From positions 1-64,000 of the forward strand of contig JAFTXJ010000017.1 of the NCBI GenBank assembly GCA_017461625.1: DNA of 64,000 bases, written 5' to 3'. The notes below the pieces were generated by a model that did not search any database, was not told the origin of the DNA, and saw only the letters and a list, made by a program, of their open reading frames with translations. Position 1 is the first letter of the stretch. Each line of letters begins with the position of its first letter. Below are positions 32,161 to 40,826 of this stretch, in pieces. This DNA comes from Clostridia bacterium (lineage in GTDB: Bacteria; Bacillota; Clostridia; Oscillospirales; Acutalibacteraceae). Position numbers and translations under genes: made by a program.

Positions 32161-32853
32161 ATGATTTTTGTAACAGGCGATATGCACGGCGATGCAAAAA
32201 TTTTTAAACAGCCGACTTTCAAAAACATCAAAAAGGATGACACCCTTATTATCTGCGGTGATTTCGGCTTTATATGGAACGGTGACAAAAGCGAAAAAGT
32301 AACATTAGACAAGCTGTCAAAAAAACCTTACACCATCTGCTTTGTTGACGGCACTCACGAAAACTTTGACCTGCTTGCAAAGTACCCCGTTGTGGAATTT
32401 GCAGGCGGAATGGCTCACAAAATAAGAGACAACATCTATCACCTGCTCAGAGGATATGTGTTTGAAATTGAAGGCGAAAAAATCTTTGCCATGGGCGGAG
32501 GCGAAAGCCCCGACATTGACATTCGCTTTGAAAACAACACCTGGTCAAAAGCCGAGATTCCATCTGCGGAAGAGATGAAAAACGGTGTTCACAACCTTGA
32601 AAGAGAAAAATTTGAGGTTGACTTTATTGTTACCCACGAGCCTCCTCAAAAAATCAAAGCTTTTTTAAATCTTAAAGACAAAGAAAATGTCCGTTTCACA
32701 GGTCTTAACTCTTATTTTGAAGAGATCAACAGCTCGTGCAAATTCACACGCTGGTATTTTGGCAGTATTCACGAAGATAAATTCGTTTCACCCTCGCACA
32801 TCGCAGTTTACAGAAACCTTATCAAAGTTCAATCAGGGGAGATTGCAAGATGA
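32161..32853 (+). CDS. Calcineurin-like metallophosphoesterase
   Basis: 230 residues. The motifs GDMHGD (GDxHGD), ICGDFGFIW (GDxxD-like) and FIVTHEPP are present. The usual GNHE motif reads GTHEN: Thr replaces the Asn that normally contacts the second metal (about residue 65). That may reduce or change activity. ATG 32161 has GGGAG 7 bp upstream; an open frame from 32077 has no such site. The gene overlaps rpe by 4 bp (ATGA), so the two are translationally coupled. The substrate is unknown, and the coupling to the pentose phosphate enzyme is positional only. Confidence 0.75.
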   Translation: MIFVTGDMHGDAKIFKQPTFKNIKKDDTLIICGDFGFIWNGDKSEKVTLDKLSKKPYTICFVDGTHENFDLLAKYPVVEFAGGMAHKIRDNIYHLLRGYVFEIEGEKIFAMGGGESPDIDIRFENNTWSKAEIPSAEEMKNGVHNLEREKFEVDFIVTHEPPQKIKAFLNLKDKENVRFTGLNSYFEEINSSCKFTRWYFGSIHEDKFVSPSHIAVYRNLIKVQSGEIAR

Positions 32854-33503
32854 ACAACATTCTTATTTCACCGTCAATTTTATCCTGCGATTTCAGTATG
32901 GCAGGTGAAGAAATTGCCAAAATTGACCGTTGCGGAGCAGACTGGATTCACGTTGATGTTATGGACGGTCATTTTGTGCCTAACATAACCTTCGGTGCCC
33001 CTGTTATGAAAATGTTCCGTCGTCACTCCGAAAAGTTTTTTGATGTTCATCTGATGATAAGCGACCCGCTTTTTTATGTCAAAGACTTTGCCCTGGCGGG
33101 TGCAGACGGAATCACCTTTCACGTTGAAAGTGACAGCGATATTGACCTGACTATTGAAGAAATAAAAAAATACGAAAAAATCCCTGCCCTGAGCGTTAAA
33201 CCGGGCACCCCTGCTGAGGCAGTTTTTCCGTATCTTGATAAAATCGGTATGGTGCTTGTTATGACTGTTGAGCCGGGCTTTGGCGGCCAGAGCTTTATGG
33301 CAGATATGCTGCCAAAAATCAAAGCAATCAGAGAAGAATGTAACAGTCGAAACCTTCCTATGCACATTCAGGTTGACGGCGGAATAAGCGAAAAAACCGC
33401 CCCCCTTGTTAAGGAGGCCGGTGCTGATGTGCTTGTGGCAGGCAGTGCCGTTTTCGGTGCTCAAAACACAGCTGAAGCTATTGAAAAAATCAGAAACGCC
33501 TGA
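32850..33503 (+). CDS. rpe: Ribulose-phosphate 3-epimerase
   Basis: 217 residues, TIM barrel of standard length. Interconverts ribulose-5-phosphate and xylulose-5-phosphate in the pentose phosphate pathway. SPSILSCDFSMAGEEIAKID is the N-terminal signature; WIHVDVMDGHFVPNITFG carries the first catalytic Asp and metal ligand, and MTVEPGFGGQSFM and HIQVDGGISEKTAP the other. The phosphate-binding loop VAGSAVFG is intact. The start overlaps the previous stop as ATGA. Convergent with the MecA-like gene, only 3 bp apart. Confidence 0.95.
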   Translation: MNNILISPSILSCDFSMAGEEIAKIDRCGADWIHVDVMDGHFVPNITFGAPVMKMFRRHSEKFFDVHLMISDPLFYVKDFALAGADGITFHVESDSDIDLTIEEIKKYEKIPALSVKPGTPAEAVFPYLDKIGMVLVMTVEPGFGGQSFMADMLPKIKAIREECNSRNLPMHIQVDGGISEKTAPLVKEAGADVLVAGSAVFGAQNTAEAIEKIRNA

Positions 33504-33506
33504 TTA

Positions 33507-34049
33507 TTAAATATGCCCTGCACTTTGCCAATGCTCAAGGGTATAATTAAGAGTAAACGCATCTTTCCCAACAGGGACAGAATACTCTTCAATAATCTTT
33601 TTTTCGTCGGCAGACGGTATGGTACAGCACACAAGCCTCAGCCTTTCACCGTTTTTGAAGAGCCTGCTTTTATACTTTAGCCCGGAGCTTTTCATTGCCG
33701 TTATCATATCGAGCAAATCGTCATAATTTTTAAATTCATAGATAACGCTTTCAGCTGTTTTGGTAAGCTTCAACGGCTGACGGAGTTCAGAATTACGCCT
33801 TTTTTCTGTTACGGTAAAGCTCAAAACACAGCCTCCGCGGCTGTCTGCCGCAGCTTCAATCAGCAGATTACCCGACGGGTCAACATCTTTGCCCAGGTCG
33901 TCACGGACCTTTTGCAATATGGTCCAGATTACACGACGGGTTTCAATTTTAGAATAATCCATTTCTTCGTATGTAATATCAAGCTCCTGCATATCTTTTT
34001 GAGTAAGCTCCACAACAAACTTGTTTTTGCCCGATGAATGAATATACAC
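33507..34049 (-). CDS. MecA-like adaptor protein
   Basis: 180 residues. Homologous to MecA/YpbH adaptors that deliver proteins to ClpC(P) for degradation. The ELTQKDMQELDITYEEMDY N-terminal domain, SGNLLIEAAADSRGGCVLSFT and the C-terminal KNYDDLLDMITAM and KSRLFKNGERLRLV follow MecA order. The GTG at 34049 is chosen because AAGGGGGA lies 6 bp upstream, and the peptide starts VYIHSSG like other MecA starts; an ATG at 34124 has no site. In Bacillus it controls competence and sporulation. Confidence 0.8.
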   Translation of the reverse strand: MYIHSSGKNKFVVELTQKDMQELDITYEEMDYSKIETRRVIWTILQKVRDDLGKDVDPSGNLLIEAAADSRGGCVLSFTVTEKRRNSELRQPLKLTKTAESVIYEFKNYDDLLDMITAMKSSGLKYKSRLFKNGERLRLVCCTIPSADEKKIIEEYSVPVGKDAFTLNYTLEHWQSAGHI

Positions 34050-34213
34050 AGCAAATCCCCCTTTTATGCTCTGATATTTGTCAGATAATATATTCTTGCA
34101 ATGTGAAATCGGTATTGCCGACACAAAACCTCACATAAGCAGGAATCTATGCAAATTATAAATCAGAATCCAAGCTTATTTCAATGAATAAAATATGGAA
34201 AGAGGTGAGCAGA

Positions 34214-35179
34214 ATGCCGGTGAAGAAAAAAGGAAAGAAAAAGAAGAACACATATTATTCGGATATGTGCTTTGCGTTATTTATTCTGCTCACAATCGCC
34301 TGCCATTTTCACGGAATAAAAGCACTCTCTCTTTTTGCCGTTTCCGTTTTAAGTGCTCTGATTTTTGACTGTATCGGTTGCAAGGTTATCAACCGCAAGT
34401 TTAAAATCAAAAACTGCCACGCAATTTTCATCGGCGGGCTGACCGCTTTGATGCTCCCTGCCTCTGCCCCACTGTGGTTACCGGTTGCAGGGTGTGCGTT
34501 TTCCGTGTTTATGATTAAAATACCTTTCGGCTCGCTCAACCTTTCGCCTTTTTCTGCTGTCGCGGCAGGCATTGCTTTTTTGAGCATCTGCAGACCCGAC
34601 CTTGTTTTTGACTATCAAAGCGACAGCGTAGGAAGCATTTCAATAGCCCAGAGCCTTTCCAGAGGCACACCTATCGTTACCGCCATTGATTTGATAAACG
34701 CATTTATCGGCTCAGTGCCAGGGGCTATGGGCACCACCTGCACCGTTGCGATGCTCGGACTGCTGATTTTTGTGATTTTAAAAAGACCCAAAAATTTTCT
34801 TAACTCCTTTGCATTTCTTTTCACCTGCTTTATAGGTGCAGTTATAATAACAGCCGTTAACAGTGAAAACTTTTTTACTCAAAACGTTTTCAGAGTTATC
34901 TGCCTGAGAATGTGCAGCGGCTTCACTTTGTGCATGGCCGTTTTCTTCGTTACGGAAGATTCACTTTTACCCAAGAAAAATATTCAACGCATTTTATACG
35001 GTATGATGATGGGCGTTGTTTACATTATACTTAACCGGGTTGGAACATATGAAGACGCAGGATGCTTTGCCGTGCTTCTTACCAACGCTTTTTGGCCCGT
35101 AATTAAAAAATATATTTTCACCGCAGGAAAAGTCAGAACGGAGGTGGTTGCAAATGAACCGACAGAAAGCCTCACTTAA
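34214..35179 (+). CDS. RnfD-like membrane subunit (divergent)
   Basis: 321 residues, about nine to ten membrane helices after a very basic start (KKKGKKKK). Homologous to RnfD/NqrB: GSVPGAMGTTCTVAML matches the family's PGSxGET region, and SLSRGTPIVTA (Thr 152) is where the flavinylation motif SGATPLA would lie. The motif is altered (RGT for GAT), so FMN attachment is uncertain. First gene of an rnfD-rnfE-rnfA-like run lacking RnfC before it and RnfG after it. ATG 34214 follows AGAGGTGAG; an ATG at 34184 precedes that site. In true Rnf the complex oxidises ferredoxin and pumps Na+ or H+. Confidence 0.8.
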   Translation: MPVKKKGKKKKNTYYSDMCFALFILLTIACHFHGIKALSLFAVSVLSALIFDCIGCKVINRKFKIKNCHAIFIGGLTALMLPASAPLWLPVAGCAFSVFMIKIPFGSLNLSPFSAVAAGIAFLSICRPDLVFDYQSDSVGSISIAQSLSRGTPIVTAIDLINAFIGSVPGAMGTTCTVAMLGLLIFVILKRPKNFLNSFAFLFTCFIGAVIITAVNSENFFTQNVFRVICLRMCSGFTLCMAVFFVTEDSLLPKKNIQRILYGMMMGVVYIILNRVGTYEDAGCFAVLLTNAFWPVIKKYIFTAGKVRTEVVANEPTESLT

Positions 35180-35867
35180 AGATATGATTTACCTTGACGG
35201 TTTTATCAAAAACCCTGTTCTGGTTCAGGTTGTGGGTATTTGCCCTGTTGCCGCGGCAGCTACTTCGGTGATAAACGCTCTTGCATTATCACTCATTTTT
35301 TCAATTTCGCTTATTTTGTGTGAAACGGTAGCAAGTCTTATTCTCAAAAAAGTTCCACGTTGGGTAAGAATGGCAATTTACTCTGTAATCAATCTGTTGG
35401 TTGTTTTTCCTACAATGTTTTTGCTTGAAAAATTTTCACTCTCACTGTTTTCTTCATTGGGTATTTATCTGCCACTTATGGCGTTCAACTCACTGAACTG
35501 TGTAAGATGCGAAAAATTTGCTGTTAAAAACTCTGTTAAGCTGAGCTTTTTTGATTCAATTGCCTGCAGTGTGGGATATTGCAGTGTTCTTATTGCCATT
35601 GGTTTAATAAGGGAGATTTTCGGCAACGGTACTTTCCTCGGAGCAGATATTCCTTTTATCGGCGGAATGAACGGCCTGCTTATGCCCTTCGGCGGATTGT
35701 TTATCATCGGCATTCTTGCCGCTTTTCACAAATCCCGGGTTATTAAAAACCACCCCGACAAGCTTAAAGAAACAGAAACAAAATTTGTTCTTGATGAAAG
35801 CGATGATAAAGAAGCAACCTTTACCTACGCTTTAAAACACAGATTCAAAAAGAACTCTACCTTATAG
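35154..35867 (+). CDS. RnfE-like membrane subunit (partly lost Fe-S ligands)
   Basis: 237 residues, six membrane helices. NPVLVQVVGICP (Cys 30) keeps the first conserved Cys of RnfE/NqrD, but the second, normally in an NC motif before GRAEAFA, reads FNSLNCVRCEKFA, so Ser 113 replaces it. Two extra cysteines lie nearby (NCVRC) and are not equivalent. LIREIFGNGTFLG is typical of RnfE. It overlaps the RnfD-like gene by 26 bp. GGAGG lies 9 bp before ATG 35154. RnfG, which lies between D and E in normal rnfCDGEAB operons, is missing here. Confidence 0.85.
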   Translation: MNRQKASLKDMIYLDGFIKNPVLVQVVGICPVAAAATSVINALALSLIFSISLILCETVASLILKKVPRWVRMAIYSVINLLVVFPTMFLLEKFSLSLFSSLGIYLPLMAFNSLNCVRCEKFAVKNSVKLSFFDSIACSVGYCSVLIAIGLIREIFGNGTFLGADIPFIGGMNGLLMPFGGLFIIGILAAFHKSRVIKNHPDKLKETETKFVLDESDDKEATFTYALKHRFKKNSTL

Positions 35868-35895
35868 TATGATTTTTATTTAAGGAGGTGCGTGT

Positions 35896-36489
35896 ATGCA
35901 ATGGTTTTTTGATATGCTTGCAGCTGCATTTTATGCCGTAATTGTGCAAAACCTTGTTTTCAGCGGTGGCTACGGACTGACCGAAGCTGTGCGAATGGCA
36001 TCAAAGCCCAAAAAGCTTTTTTCAACAGCAGGTATGATTATCTACTTTTCAACCGTTACTGCCGTAATTTGTCGCATACTCGACTTCCTTCCGATTATTG
36101 AAAAGCAAAATCAATCTGTTCATTTTCTTATATTTTTTGCGGTACTGATAATAATTTATTTTATAACAGGTATTCTCAGCCTGATTATACTAAAACCCAA
36201 CAAAAGATTTATGACCAAGCTTGCAATGTGTGCCATGAACACACTTGTTATGGCAATTCCCCTTATCAACCGCCGAAGTGTAAGCACCTTTGGTGAAAGC
36301 ATCGGCACGGGGTTTGGCTCAGGCATCGCTTTTATTGTGGCTTCAATTCTCATAAGTGTGGGCTTTTCCAAAATAGCTCACAGCAAAAAAATCCCCGAAC
36401 CGTTCAGAGGCACACCTGCAATGTTTATTTATGTTGCCGTTTTATCAATGGCAGTTACAGGCATAACAGGTTCAGGCGTGTTCGCATAA
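35896..36489 (+). CDS. RnfA-like membrane subunit lacking both conserved cysteines
   Basis: 197 residues, six membrane helices. Recognised by the order of helices and by the C-terminal EPFRGTPAMFIYVAVLSMAV, as in RnfA/NqrE. The first canonical cysteine site (NNFVL..FLGICPFLG) reads QNLVFSGGYGLTE, with Tyr 26 in place of Cys. The second (TTNCAILG) reads CAMNTLVMA, with Thr 116 in place of Cys. The intramembrane [2Fe-2S] cluster shared by RnfA and RnfE therefore cannot form as usual. AAGGAGGTG precedes ATG 35896. Third gene of the D-E-A run; RnfB would normally follow but a different gene does. Confidence 0.85.
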   Translation: MQWFFDMLAAAFYAVIVQNLVFSGGYGLTEAVRMASKPKKLFSTAGMIIYFSTVTAVICRILDFLPIIEKQNQSVHFLIFFAVLIIIYFITGILSLIILKPNKRFMTKLAMCAMNTLVMAIPLINRRSVSTFGESIGTGFGSGIAFIVASILISVGFSKIAHSKKIPEPFRGTPAMFIYVAVLSMAVTGITGSGVFA

Positions 36490-36514: not shown

Positions 36515-36922
36515 ATGGCAGAAAGAAACAACGGCTCAAGACGCAGAAAGGCCTTTGCCGATTTTAAAGAAAATCAATATAACGACTCCTTTTCCATAAG
36601 CGAGTCACAAAAAAGAAAAATATTTTTCAAAACCGTATTCAGGTATGTTTTTATAATTCTGATTACTCTCGTTTTTATAGCTGTGGGATTTGTTATTTCG
36701 GACGCTTTGCTTGATATATCCGAAGCGGAATATCACGACACTAAAGTATATACCCCAACCAACACCACGGCTGAAAGCACCACTCTTTTGCCTACAAACC
36801 CATCAAGCGAAGCTGACGAGAGCAACTCTGACCCGAGTAACACCGACAACAGCAGTGAAGCATCATCACAGGCAAACGATGAAACTCAACCTGACTATCA
36901 AAACAATCCGGAGCAAGAATAA
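36515..36922 (+). CDS. Single-pass membrane protein with Ser/Thr-rich tail
   Basis: 135 residues, no recognised family. The cytoplasmic N-terminus (about 1-40) is rich in Arg and Lys. One membrane helix follows (YVFIILITLVFIAVGFVIS, about 44-63). The extracellular tail is low-complexity and rich in Ser, Thr, Asn, Asp and Glu (for example SSEADESNSDPSNTDNSSEA). AGGAAGGAG lies before the ATG. It follows rnfA by 25 bp, and its stop overlaps the GH13 start (TAATG), so it belongs to the same transcript. It could anchor a surface complex. Confidence 0.6.
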   Translation: MAERNNGSRRRKAFADFKENQYNDSFSISESQKRKIFFKTVFRYVFIILITLVFIAVGFVISDALLDISEAEYHDTKVYTPTNTTAESTTLLPTNPSSEADESNSDPSNTDNSSEASSQANDETQPDYQNNPEQE

Positions 36923-38769
36923 TGTATATTCCCTTTAATTCTACAAAAGAATATCACAAATACCCACTCGGGGCAGTGAAAGAAGACACTCAAATCACTT
37001 TCAGAATTATTCTGCCCAGAGATTTCGGTTGCACAGGTGCACGTGTTGTTATCACAAAAGACGGTGAAACCTCCTGCCGCTATTCAATGTGGTGGGACTG
37101 TATGCAAAACGACAACGAGGAATGGTGGAAATTTCAGATTCCCCTTGGTGAAAAGGGTCTGTATTTTTATCACTTTGAGTATGACACAAGCTTTGGAACA
37201 AGCAACATTTTTCGTTACCGTGACACACTTAACGGCTGCTTTGCTCCTTCGGGTGAGGAATGGCAGATAACCGTTTATTCCAAAGATTTTTCTACCCCCG
37301 ACTGGATAAAAGGCGGTGTGATTTATCAGATTTTCCCTGACAGATTTTATTTTTCAGGGCAGGCGAAAGCTGATGTTCCCAAAAACCGAATTATCAGAAC
37401 CGACTATGATGGGGAGCCTTACTGGCGACCTGATCAAAACGGCAAAGTTTTAAACAACGACTTTTTTGGCGGTGACCTGAAAGGCATTGAAGAAAAGCTT
37501 GATTACATCAGCTCACTCGGTGTCAGCTGTATTTATCTCAATCCCATTTTTGAGGCTCAGTCAAACCACCGTTATGACACTGCTGATTATGAAAAAATTG
37601 ACCCTCTGCTTGGTAATGAAAATGACTTTGTTTCTCTTTGCAAAAAAGCTGAGGAACACGGCATTAAGATAATACTTGACGGTGTTTTCAGCCACACAGG
37701 CAGTGACAGCCGATATTTTAACAAAAACGGAAGATACCCGGACACAGGTGCTTTTCAGAGCAAAGACTCACCTTATTATAAATGGTATAAATTTCTTTCG
37801 TGGCCACACAAATACGAAAGCTGGTGGGGCATTGACATTTTGCCCGAGGTCATTGAAGAAACACCTGACTTTATAAACTACATTTCAGGTGAGGGCGGAA
37901 TTTTACAAAAATGGCTCTCTGCGGGCGCAAGCGGATGGCGGCTTGATGTTGCAGATGAGTTGCCCGATGAATTTCTTGATGCATTGAGAAAAAGCGTTAA
38001 ATCCCACAACCCCGATGCCCTTATTATCGGCGAAGTGTGGGAAGACGCTTCAAATAAATCGAGCTACGGCAAAAGACGCCGTTATCTGCAAGGCGACCAG
38101 CTTGACAGCGTTATGAACTATCCCTTTGCTGATTGCATTATTGATTTTGTGCGTTACGGCAATGCTGAAAACTTTGAAAAAGCTGTTGTTACCGTTATTG
38201 AAAATTATCCCAAGCCTGTTATCGACACGCTTATGAATCACATCGGCACTCACGACACGCAAAGGGCAATCACTGCCCTTGCAGGTGAAAGCTGTATTTA
38301 CCGTGGCAGAGAGTGGCAATCCGGCAGAAAGCTTGATGAAGAAAAGCTCAGAACCGGCATCCGCCTTTTAAAACAGGCGGCTGTACTTCAGTTTACTCTC
38401 CCCGGAGTTCCAAGTGTTTATTACGGTGACGAAGCAGGTCTTGAAGGCTATAAAGATCCGTTTAACCGAGGCTATTACCCTTGGGGCAAAGAGAATAACG
38501 ACCTTCTTGAGTTTTACCGTGCCCTCGGCAAGGTAAGAAAAGAAAACCCCCAATTTGCCTCGGCTGAGTGCAAAATAATTTCAGCCGTCATGGGCTGCGT
38601 TGCTTATTCAAGAGACGACATTACCGTTATTTCAAACAGCAATAATCACCCCATCAGATATTTTTTGCCTGAGGACAGGCATGGCAGTTATGTAATTTTC
38701 GGTGAGAGCGAATGCGACGGAATTTCTGTAAGCATATGTGCCAACTCATCAGTAATTTTAAAAAGGTAA
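36922..38769 (+). CDS. Cytoplasmic GH13 alpha-amylase family enzyme (neopullulanase-like)
   Basis: 615 residues. Hydrolyses alpha-1,4 glucans or maltodextrins. The N-terminal beta domain (1-130) precedes the GH13 barrel: GGVIYQIFPDRF, GGDLKGIEEKLDYISSLGV, DGVFSHTG, the nucleophile Asp in GWRLDVADEL, the acid/base Glu in LIIGEVWEDAS and the stabilising Asp in NHIGTHDTQR. The C-terminal beta domain follows. No signal peptide, so it acts inside the cell on imported dextrins or on glycogen. Translation couples to the preceding membrane protein by a TAATG overlap; an LCP-like gene follows 9 bp later. Confidence 0.92.
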   Translation: MYIPFNSTKEYHKYPLGAVKEDTQITFRIILPRDFGCTGARVVITKDGETSCRYSMWWDCMQNDNEEWWKFQIPLGEKGLYFYHFEYDTSFGTSNIFRYRDTLNGCFAPSGEEWQITVYSKDFSTPDWIKGGVIYQIFPDRFYFSGQAKADVPKNRIIRTDYDGEPYWRPDQNGKVLNNDFFGGDLKGIEEKLDYISSLGVSCIYLNPIFEAQSNHRYDTADYEKIDPLLGNENDFVSLCKKAEEHGIKIILDGVFSHTGSDSRYFNKNGRYPDTGAFQSKDSPYYKWYKFLSWPHKYESWWGIDILPEVIEETPDFINYISGEGGILQKWLSAGASGWRLDVADELPDEFLDALRKSVKSHNPDALIIGEVWEDASNKSSYGKRRRYLQGDQLDSVMNYPFADCIIDFVRYGNAENFEKAVVTVIENYPKPVIDTLMNHIGTHDTQRAITALAGESCIYRGREWQSGRKLDEEKLRTGIRLLKQAAVLQFTLPGVPSVYYGDEAGLEGYKDPFNRGYYPWGKENNDLLEFYRALGKVRKENPQFASAECKIISAVMGCVAYSRDDITVISNSNNHPIRYFLPEDRHGSYVIFGESECDGISVSICANSSVILKR

Positions 38770-38778
38770 AGTGAGCTT

Positions 38779-39630
38779 ATGAGCAAAAAAGATGAACGAC
38801 TTTTCAACCCCGTCAGGGTTCAAAAAAAGGGACGGTGGAAGTTTTTTCTGCTGGGTTTTGTTGCCTTTATTTTAGTTTTCGGCAGTGGAACTCTTGTCTA
38901 TCTCTCTTCAAAAGTAGATAACCTGAGTATTGATAAAATTATGTCTTCTTTTGAAAAAGAATTTCAGGATGACTCTGCATATTCAGGAAAAGAAGGTGAA
39001 GCCACCATTCTTTTCACAAGCATTTCATCCTCCGAAACTGCAGAAACAGGCAAAAAGGAAATGTATTTTTTAGTGTTAGCAAAGGTCAATGCATCTGATG
39101 GCAGTATCAAAATTTGCCCTCTTGAGGTTAAAGACAGCTATATTCAAAGCTATGAATCAGGCGGAGAAAACGAAGTTATGAACGCTGTCAGCAAAGACTG
39201 CAACATTAAAATTGACCGTTTTGTTTCTTCAGATGAAAACACCTTTGCCCTTGCCGTAAATTATATGGACGGTCTTGAATACAATGTTCCGGAAAGGGTT
39301 GAATACCGTACCAAGGACCTTACCCTCATTCTTACACCCGGCAGGCAGACCATCAAGGGTGAGTCGCTTTTAAAATATTTAAAATATTTTAAAGAAAAAG
39401 GGCTTTCAGGTCAGGCTGATCTTTTTTGTGCAATGGTTGAAGATTATATAATTGAAGAAAATATGGAAAACCCGATGAAAATTTACAAGGGTGTTCTCGG
39501 TGAACTGAACGGTAACAGCAACATCTCTTTTGTTGACACTGCAGACAACCTTGATATTATTAAAATTATTGCTCAAAAAGATGATGCAAAAGCCGTTGCC
39601 GTTAAAAGCATTGAAGACCTTAAAAGCTGA
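38779..39630 (+). CDS. LCP (LytR-CpsA-Psr)-like membrane protein, divergent
   Basis: 283 residues. One N-terminal membrane helix (FFLLGFVAFILVFGSGTLVY). The extracellular part follows the LCP outline: DRFVSSDENTFALAVNYMDGLEYNVP, then LILTPGRQTIKGESLLKYLKYF, matching LCP motifs DGG(V/I)xVxVP and L.PG.Q.LdG..AL.Y. The arginines that bind the pyrophosphate lipid head group (DxxR and YxRxR) are not seen, so it may be inactive or play a regulatory part. LCP enzymes attach glycopolymers to peptidoglycan. It lies in the rnf-GH13 run, 9 bp after the GH13 gene. Confidence 0.6.
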   Translation: MSKKDERLFNPVRVQKKGRWKFFLLGFVAFILVFGSGTLVYLSSKVDNLSIDKIMSSFEKEFQDDSAYSGKEGEATILFTSISSSETAETGKKEMYFLVLAKVNASDGSIKICPLEVKDSYIQSYESGGENEVMNAVSKDCNIKIDRFVSSDENTFALAVNYMDGLEYNVPERVEYRTKDLTLILTPGRQTIKGESLLKYLKYFKEKGLSGQADLFCAMVEDYIIEENMENPMKIYKGVLGELNGNSNISFVDTADNLDIIKIIAQKDDAKAVAVKSIEDLKS

Positions 39631-39653: not shown

Positions 39654-40826
39654 ATGAAAAAATTTTTAAGCTTTGTGACTGCAATTGTAATTATCGCCGT
39701 TGCTGTCAGCCATAAAACAGAAATCCTTGAAGCTGTTGATAAAACCTTCGGGGCAGAAACCGTTATCAATTGGGATGAAATCCCCCTTGAGCAAAGCAGC
39801 TTCGGCTCTGCTTATAAAAATCATTATTCAAAACTAAATAACAATCAGAAAAAAGCGTATAACCATATTCTTGATGAGATTTTCAATGCCGAATATGAGT
39901 TCCCTGACATGATTCAGGTACCTTTGATGACCGGCGAAGAGCTCACCGCAGTGGTTGAAGCTGTTAATTATGATAACCCGACAGTTATGTGTATAGGCAG
40001 AGACAATACAATTATTACAAGTGATGACCTTTGTTACCTTAAACCCAATTACACAATGTCTCCACCTCAGCAGCGTGTAATGCTGAACACCCTCGACAGC
40101 GTGTGCAACAGCATTCTTTCTCACATTGACACAGATGCTGATGACTTTGAAAAAGAGCTTTTCATTCATGATTACATTGTAAACAACTGCACCTACGACT
40201 CCGCTGTTGCTCTGAGCTCTTCAACACCGTACAGCTGCCTTGTTGACGGCTTATCTGCTTGTGAAGGCTATTCAAAGGCAGCAAAGCTCCTTTTAGAAAA
40301 AGCCGGACTTGAGTGCTATACCGTTTCGGGTCAGGCAACATCAACTGACGGCAAAACCGAAGGGCATATGTGGAACATTGTAAATATTGACGGAGCCTAT
40401 TACCACCTTGATGTTACGTGGGATGACCCCACAAACCAAAGCGGAAAGGAAACTGTTTCACATCTTTTTATGAATTTAAGTGATGAAGATATCGGCATCG
40501 ACCACTTTGATTATGAAAAGTTTTTTGCCTGTGACAGTGGCGAAGCAAACTATTTCATAAAAAATGACTGCCTTTTCGGTAAGCTTAATTCCAAAGCTTT
40601 ATCAAGACTCAAAAAGCTTATGGCACTCAAAAACAACAGCCACCTTGAAATCCGATTTAAAAGCAGCTCTTATTATTCACAGGCATTCGACTACCTTATA
40701 ACTGACGGCAAAATCTATAAACTAACCGATTCAGCCAACAAAATATACAATACTCAGCTTAATACACGCTCTGTAAGCTACATCGAAAACAAAGAAAGAA
40801 ACTGTATTGACTTTTATTTTGACTGA
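39654..40826 (+). CDS. Secreted transglutaminase-like protein
   Basis: 390 residues. A short N-terminal hydrophobic segment (FLSFVTAIVIIAVAVS) suggests export. The transglutaminase-like core has the catalytic Cys in LSACEGYSKAAKLLL (about 202), the His in EGHMWNIVNIDG and the Asp in YHLDVTWDDP. Such domains act as cysteine peptidases or crosslinkers in cell-wall proteins. The gene closes the run that begins with rnfD, 23 bp after the LCP-like gene. No strong terminator was found after it, but a new promoter lies at 40831. Confidence 0.75.
   Translation: MKKFLSFVTAIVIIAVAVSHKTEILEAVDKTFGAETVINWDEIPLEQSSFGSAYKNHYSKLNNNQKKAYNHILDEIFNAEYEFPDMIQVPLMTGEELTAVVEAVNYDNPTVMCIGRDNTIITSDDLCYLKPNYTMSPPQQRVMLNTLDSVCNSILSHIDTDADDFEKELFIHDYIVNNCTYDSAVALSSSTPYSCLVDGLSACEGYSKAAKLLLEKAGLECYTVSGQATSTDGKTEGHMWNIVNIDGAYYHLDVTWDDPTNQSGKETVSHLFMNLSDEDIGIDHFDYEKFFACDSGEANYFIKNDCLFGKLNSKALSRLKKLMALKNNSHLEIRFKSSSYYSQAFDYLITDGKIYKLTDSANKIYNTQLNTRSVSYIENKERNCIDFYFD

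Follow-up and report, generated by a model that had tools for sequence, protein, structure and literature searches.

An Rnf-like gene trio beside which RnfB, RnfC and RnfG are missing

The DNA analyzed here, referred to as the window, is the 64,000-nucleotide stretch at positions 1 to 64,000 of contig JAFTXJ010000017.1 from a Clostridia bacterium of the family Acutalibacteraceae (assembly GCA_017461625.1). It contains three consecutive genes for membrane proteins related to RnfD, RnfE and RnfA, together called the module (Table 1; residues of the window proteins are numbered from the ATG starts). An earlier reading of the sequence without database searches (the sequence-only reading) had assigned the genes to these subunits in this order, which was borne out by matches to PF03116 (D) and PF02508 (E and A) and by alignment over most of their length to chains D, E and A of 7zc6, the closest among the PDB chains. 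The NCBIfam Rnf/Nqr models were matched significantly, yet all three proteins stayed under the model cut-offs. PF03116 was the sole above-cut-off match of the window D, and thus no fused PF00175 NAD-binding domain was found in it. The start of E overlaps the end of D, and Shine-Dalgarno-like sequences lie 5' of D (AGAGGTGA), of the E ATG (GGAGGTGG) and of the A ATG (AAGGAGGTG). Genes for RnfB, RnfC and RnfG were not found adjoining the trio in the window, as the sequence-only reading had likewise stated.

Table 1. Features of the module and its surroundings (window positions)
Feature	Position	Strand	Evidence or remark
rpe, ribulose-phosphate 3-epimerase	32850..33503	+	PF00834, 236 bits; usual upstream neighbor of the module
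MecA-like adaptor gene, divergent	33507..34124	-	PF05389, 36.5 bits; between rpe and D
RnfD-like membrane protein, 321 amino acids from ATG 34214	34214..35179	+	PF03116, 159.5 bits; nearest PDB relative 7zc6_D
RnfE-like membrane protein, 237 amino acids	35154..35867	+	PF02508, 115.5 bits
Codon of E Cys30, first ligand site	35241..35243	+	alignment
Codon of E Ser113, second ligand site	35490..35492	+	alignment
RnfA-like membrane protein, 197 amino acids	35896..36489	+	PF02508, 49.1 bits
Codons of A Thr29 (ligand site) and Glu30	35980..35985	+	alignment
Codons of A Asn115 (Na+ site) and Thr116 (second ligand site)	36238..36243	+	alignment
Probable fourth subunit S, 135 amino acids: basic segment, single hydrophobic helix, polar tail	36515..36922	+	ribosome site AGGAAGGAG
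Alpha-amylase	36922-38769	+	start overlaps stop of S
LCP-family protein	38779-39630	+	downstream of S, same direction
Transglutaminase-like protein	39654-40826	+	downstream of S, same direction

Loss of the [2Fe-2S] ligands

Ligand positions were compared among the A (81) and E (80) sequences of the core, a second tier of 25 rows for either protein, and ordinary Rnf rows from 29 relatives (29 rows), with the ligand numbering of Acetobacterium woodii as given in the available part of PMC11889175. The core consists of 81 loci, namely the window and 80 loci kept from a scan of species-genome contigs with the A alignment, which yielded 203 candidate stretches and 123 relatives. All kept loci came from records titled metagenome-assembled genome (MAG) or uncultured.

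Each of the four ligand sites held cysteine in 29/29 ordinary rows. At A-C25, cysteine was found in none of the second-tier (0/25) or core rows (0/81), and at A-C113 in 9/25 and 0/81, respectively. The E-C25 site was cysteine in 1/25 second-tier and 60/80 core rows, and the E-C108 site in 0/25 and 0/80. The corresponding window residues are A Thr29, A Thr116, E Cys30 and E Ser113, and profile alignments to PDB chains (7zc6_A for A) bring the same ligand columns together. The sequence-only reading had correctly placed A Thr116, E Cys30 and E Ser113 at their sites; its choice of A Tyr26 for the first site was a miscount, as the residue aligned there is Thr29 (GLTE versus the GICP motif). Its claim that the usual [2Fe-2S] cluster cannot form holds, since three of the four ligands are lost throughout the core clade. 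Disconnection of the core clade from redox chemistry by the known route is nearly certain.

A full set of replacement cysteines was not found in the core A and E alignments, and hence no complete set at shifted but equivalent positions. The only conserved cysteine of core A is Cys59 (80/81); E conserves Cys119 (75/80; Cys121 in TTG numbering) and Cys30 (60/80). New invariant residues have appeared in core A, namely Pro122 and Tyr179 (81/81 each). Beside the lost first ligand of A, Glu30 is present in 81/81 core rows, at a position that is Pro in 29/29 ordinary rows and Arg (12/25) or Thr (4/25) in second-tier rows.

Flavin sites of D

The D comparison covered 80 core, 25 second-tier and 17 ordinary sequences, the latter being those of the 29 with a long enough D. 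The riboflavin ligand N123 was present in 17/17 ordinary, 17/25 second-tier and 2/80 core sequences, and D249 in 17/17, 17/25 and 36/80, respectively. Both were kept together in 17/17, 15/25 and 2/80. The window D carries Ser in place of N123 and Glu in place of D249 (A. woodii numbering). At the place of the covalent flavin mononucleotide (FMN), the register is ambiguous in core D, with Ser in 75/80 sequences by one alignment and Thr in 29/80 in a shifted register.

An ordinary Rnf in the same genome

A complete rnfCDGEAB operon, with apbE upstream, is located on contig C17 of the genome from which the window derives. Its products score high (D, 371 bits; E, 233 bits and A, 192 bits for PF02508), and in BLASTP the window trio is 21.7% (D), 34.7% (E) and 22.2% (A, over 135 residues) identical to them. 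The presence of this complete ordinary operon elsewhere in the genome identifies the trio, by homology, as a paralog of the ordinary Rnf core. RnfC_N and FMN_bind each occur once in the genome, within the ordinary operon. PF04060 matches the RnfB of that operon and, outside it, one 459-amino-acid frame on contig C4 (Fe-S match at G000:C4:182593-182691, minus strand). Divergent RnfB, RnfC and RnfG partners of the trio elsewhere in the genome were considered and rejected, as the RnfB, RnfC and RnfG genes that were found lie in the ordinary operon; the genome is 86.6% complete, which leaves a gap for such genome-wide negatives. A whole-genome search with Rnf profiles had been suggested by the sequence-only reading. 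It established that B, C and G are not absent from the genome and that they belong to a separate, high-scoring Rnf rather than sharing the divergence of the trio. Downstream of this ordinary operon (L006 8457-11141) lie genes for a radical-SAM/SPASM protein and an Orn/Lys/Arg-decarboxylase-like protein.

Distribution of the module

A search of 60 relatives for a divergent E or A gene (E value of 0.001) located the module in 17: 4 of 17 congeners, 9 of 19 members of the same family and 4 among the rest. The distribution of the module is patchy. Ordinary pairs were also present in 15 of the 17 module-bearing relatives. In 80 of the 81 core loci, D, E and A lie on a single strand in this fixed order; L117 ends at a contig edge. 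Matches to the RnfC or RnfG models were absent from the 81 core loci, four of which have less than 1 kilobase (kb) behind A, and an RnfB-model match occurred in one, weakly (43 bits) and about 5 kb before D in L101. The sequence-only reading had asked whether relatives keep the trio without B, C and G. Many do, rather than all having lost it, and the patchiness qualifies this answer.

Among 394 genomes sampled from the order, A matches above 200 bits were found in 10 and matches of 85 to 130 bits in 23 more, and all 18 neighborhoods inspected of the latter 23 were modules. A sample of 391 genomes from the class gave 10 matches at 1e-20, namely the genome of the window, 8 genomes of the same order (G086 and G118 without further inspection) and G562; distant modules, like the one in G042, would escape this threshold, so the sample is no proof of absence outside the order. 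The G562 match, which comes from outside the order, was rejected as a module because it belongs to an ordinary C-D-G-E-A-B set. Of two named genera looked up, Candidatus Limimonas belongs to the Acutalibacteraceae. Genome G054 holds a second ordinary-type C-D-G-E-A-B set (L055), whose C gene, as judged by eye, encodes a long hydrophobic extension at the N terminus.

Older branches and module-only genomes

The D, E and A sequences were concatenated, and a tree was built by a quick method from 64 rows (17 ordinary, 24 second-tier and 23 of the 80 core rows). All module rows formed one clade and the core formed one clade, each with a Shimodaira-Hasegawa-like approximate likelihood ratio test (SH-aLRT) value of 100; three second-tier rows sat on long branches and some forks were unresolved. 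L049, the first to split off, and L038 and L053 near the base each combine an RnfC-like gene with a DUF4015-type gene. Among the 19 second-tier loci (L136 to L154), RnfC-like genes were found in 9 and DUF4015-type genes in 11, and rpe was upstream in 19/19 (overlapping D in one); matches to the G or B models were found in 0/19. L155 of genome G209, fetched along with them, proved to be an ordinary set of the full type. The RnfC-like proteins of modules keep all eight cysteines of both [4Fe-4S] motifs (14/14), and the Gly-rich FMN/NADH loop was found in none (0/14). Because an RnfC-like partner still exists in the older branches, the redox function was apparently lost stepwise. The simplest order would begin with the loss of B and G, of the NADH loop and of most cluster ligands; C and the riboflavin Asn would have followed.

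Forty-eight genomes that carry the module themselves, or whose genus does, were searched for an ordinary E/A pair. It was present in 43 and not found in five drafts: G042, G066 and G085 (one genus, 95-98% complete), G235 (99%, two contigs) and G028 (79%). FMN_bind was found in 0/5 of these module-only genomes versus 3/3 others tested. ApbE was missing in G042, G066 and G085 and present in G235 and G028. As ApbE was also missing in G017 and G031, which have ordinary Rnf, its absence alone is weak; the D proteins of G042, G066 and G085 have Asn at the FMN-acceptor place, in agreement with the missing ApbE. The module is thus maintained in five genomes in which neither an ordinary Rnf nor an FMN_bind-family flavoprotein was found.

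The ratio of nonsynonymous to synonymous substitution rates (dN/dS) was estimated between the window and near relatives with our own script (NG86 method). Values were 0.15-0.17 for D, 0.13-0.21 for E and 0.07-0.15 for A, with 0.07-0.14 for rpe as a yardstick; dS was near saturation, and several pairs gave no value. As judged from these ratios, D, E and A are under purifying selection.

A single-helix partner and the tails of E

The gene behind A in the window, S, probably belongs to the module. Comparable genes were counted by our own hydropathy scan in the 80 core loci with enough sequence. A single-helix frame lay close behind A in 68/80, or 66/80 once the LCP proteins of L130 and L133 were subtracted; short S-type matches are present in these two loci, outside the 66. 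The chain behind the helix has at most 25 residues in 15 of the 66 proteins, 25-120 in 13 (that of L100 is cut by the contig) and more than 250 in 38. The single-helix proteins (S/X) of the long kind carry DUF4015 (PF13200, a putative glycosyl hydrolase domain) in 9/9 cases scanned, five of them from core loci (L086, L068, L087, L077 and L063). This domain was not found in the S of the window or in its genome. By plain count, a hydrophobic-Ser pair follows the helix in 65/66 S proteins. By the positive-inside rule, the S/X helix would run from inside to outside like the RnfG helix. The hydropathy scan found no single-helix frame behind A in 12 core loci, and the next gene in 7 of these encodes an aminotransferase (three scanned, L103, L105 and L134; four by like starts).

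Long acidic C-terminal tails are present on E in many relatives (for example L107, L119, L068 and L087), with motifs like YLDDFSDMLSELE or ELEELMSKSLDDI; the tail of the window E is short. The median length of E over the 80 core rows is 355.5 amino acids. In one genus (L049, L158 and L159), E has a long Pro/Ala/Glu-rich N-terminal extension, of about 290 amino acids in L049, and an ordinary Rnf pair and ApbE were not found in the genomes of these three loci.

Residues of the ion path

According to the available part of PMC11889175, cryo-electron microscopy, simulations and mutants of the Acetobacterium complex place Na+ near RnfA N112, modulated by the RnfE R67-E115 pair. In the same source, the RnfE variant E115A grew like the wild type, E115Q grew poorly and E115K did not grow, and RnfA T110G did not grow in A. 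woodii. The Asn of the Na+ site is kept in 29/29 ordinary, 24/25 second-tier and 81/81 core rows (Asn115 in the window). Likewise, E-R67 is kept in 29/29, 21/25 and 80/80 rows (window Arg72), and E-E115 in 29/29, 9/25 and 79/80 (window Glu120). As these Asn, Arg and Glu gate residues are kept, the balance tilts toward an ion-coupled machine.

Interpretation and alternatives

Overall, we favor, with about even confidence, a reading of the module as a paralogous Rnf core (D-E-A) that has lost the known route for electrons and retains part of the ion gate. It would probably operate with a single-helix partner, S/X, either S alone or S lengthened by a DUF4015 domain on the outside. Cation-coupled activity would be the most likely retained function, at somewhat less than an even chance. 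Around a cation, the A/E pair would still alternate between an inward-open and an outward-open state. In place of the electron that drives Rnf, either the gradient of the ion or solute or the fixed charge of A Glu30 would act, and the switch would move a cation or a cation-coupled solute and/or pass its movement to S/X. RnfG has been reported to move with A/E in Rnf. We suggest, more tentatively still, that an A/E gate freed of electrons could have made the duplicated core a cation-driven transporter or a mechanical transducer, in which the Glu beside the lost cluster would stand in for the charge of the reduced [2Fe-2S] center and a solute or a cell-wall-facing single-helix partner would be moved. 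The sequence-only reading had proposed a repurposed channel, transporter or scaffold rather than an electron pump; the loss of the known electron route agrees with this, and the choice among the three lies beyond sequence.

Several observations weigh against the favored reading. The role of E-E115 is itself mixed, given the wild-type growth of E115A, and this residue is kept in only 9/25 second-tier rows. The ion path is incompletely kept in core RnfA, where the T110 site is Ala in 77/81 rows, L108 is replaced by Ile, Val or Met, E88 is lost and T111 is changed. Core D may still bind a flavin, given the Ser or Thr at or next to the covalent-FMN site. The ordinary controls were the best-scoring loci of the 60-relative search, a choice that favors cysteine retention; many of the core rows are closely related to one another; and the tree was rooted with ordinary Rnf of the same order only. 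At an E value of 0.001, no divergent E or A gene was found in 43/60 relatives, including 13/17 congeners, of which G001, G008 and G015 are at least 95% complete. In-frame TGA codons occur in E of G058 (C22) and in A of G253 (C139), through decay or sequencing error. Finally, a scaffold would show the same losses.

Such a scaffold is the strongest competitor, though we consider it rather unlikely. Here D-E-A would carry out no transport and would serve as a platform holding a glycosidase-like S/X outside and a cytosolic partner via the acidic tail of E. The frequency of S/X behind A (66/80, 38 of them with more than 250 residues after the helix), the long E tails reflected in the median E length, and the envelope-type neighbors in the window (a carboxypeptidase and the LCP protein) are in its favor. 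However, the window itself has a short E tail and an S without a large outside domain, 15/66 S proteins end within 25 residues of the helix, and a mere platform would not be expected to keep the Asn of the Na+ site or the Arg-Glu pair.

A flavin-only, one-armed conduit, in which D would pass electrons (in the second tier from the [4Fe-4S] clusters of the RnfC-like protein to the riboflavin of D) and A/E would be structural, is unlikely. One-armed NQR/RNF-like systems exist according to the available parts of PMC8238504 and PMC11334425. The intact [4Fe-4S] motifs of the RnfC-like proteins, both riboflavin ligands in 15/25 second-tier D sequences and a Ser on or adjoining the FMN site in 75/80 core D sequences fit such a conduit. 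However, the core lacks RnfC, both riboflavin ligands are present in 2/80 core D proteins and the window D has no NAD-binding domain. In addition, FMN_bind is missing from the five module-only genomes, three of which lack ApbE and have Asn at the acceptor place.

A hybrid pump, in which the trio would be completed by the B, C and G subunits that the cell makes for its ordinary Rnf, is very improbable. Indeed, 43/48 module genomes have an ordinary E/A pair and the genome of the window has rnfCDGEAB, but the ligand loss removes the known electron step through A/E, and five genomes (drafts, one 79% complete) have neither an ordinary pair nor FMN_bind. Sharing of B, C and G with ordinary Rnf as a general rule is contradicted by these five genomes.

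We give hardly any credence to a different metal or Fe-S site built from the shifted cysteines A Cys59, E Cys30 and E Cys119. These residues are conserved in 80/81, 60/80 and 75/80 core rows, but E Cys30 is missing in 20/80 and the sole conserved A cysteine lies 30 residues from the former ligand. In the topology of these subunits, A Cys59 and E Cys119 would presumably be on opposite sides of the membrane. A decaying remnant of a duplicated rnf operon, to which the loss of B, C and G, the divergent sequence, the patchiness (17/60 relatives) and the two TGA codons might point, was rejected as very improbable in view of the dN/dS values of 0.07-0.21 and the near-invariant clade-specific residues A Glu30 (81/81), A Cys59 (80/81) and E Cys119 (75/80), together with the gene order kept in 80/81 loci and the intact window genes and ribosome sites, from which the sequence-only reading had already argued against decay.

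Relation to known systems

The module shares homologous D, E and A subunits, the order D-E-A, the Na+-site Asn and the Arg-Glu pair with Rnf (Clostridium tetanomorphum, 7zc6; A. woodii, 9eri). It differs in that its core has no adjoining B, G or C, has lost the riboflavin Asn as well as three of its four [2Fe-2S] ligands, and has gained a single-helix gene and a linkage to rpe. The core subunits of Na+-NQR (NqrB, NqrD and NqrE) are likewise homologous, but A and D of the module match Rnf better and the ligands are lost. The one-armed NQR/RNF-like systems, as described in the available parts of PMC8238504 and PMC11334425, resemble the module in comprising partial Rnf/Nqr machinery and in having lost the conserved FMN Thr of the D/B-type subunit. 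They consist of two subunits, an FMN_bind-type protein and a D-type protein fused to an NAD-binding domain, whereas the module keeps A/E and no FMN_bind partner was found. Sequence comparison would set the module apart from Rnf complexes proper, with these one-armed systems as the nearest published kind. Among the matches listed in a search of titles and abstract starts in the open-access PMC literature, which holds no preprints, a prior description of a D-E-A module without cluster ligands was not found.

The ion carrier in Rnf and Nqr (D/NqrB versus the A/E pair) and its coupling to electrons are disputed, as seen in the available parts of PMC12174285 and PMC11889175. A natural core without the electron path that keeps part of the A/E gate would be a ready-made test; if a cation were still moved, the gate would be separable from electron transfer. 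The module further suggests that a redox pump was dismantled stepwise under continued selection. In these genomes, a match to RnfD, RnfE or RnfA is no sure sign of electron transport.

Genomic neighbors and other observations

The rpe gene is directly upstream of the module in 68 of the 74 core loci whose upstream sequence reaches 2 kb or more (60 by distance and 8 overlapping D as called) and was absent there in 6. A MecA-like gene lies between rpe and D in 54/74 core loci and 7/19 second-tier loci. Its link to the module is uncertain, and an action of MecA via the acidic tail of E, which we considered, would be speculation. An amylase gene follows the module in 19/81 core loci and lies upstream instead in L085. 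Kinase and RsgA genes were expected upstream of rpe; the only locus scanned (L036) has EF-G and a MarR-GNAT protein there, and the link was dropped. In one sub-branch, a gene between D and E (L039 5418-6191 and L111 7096-7878) was considered as RnfG and rejected, since it encodes a CAP-domain (PF00188) protein; rpe was not found upstream in these loci. At the gathering threshold, the whole window gave no Rfam match besides a T-box leader (RF00230, 113 bits) at 2193-2426 on the plus strand, far from the module.

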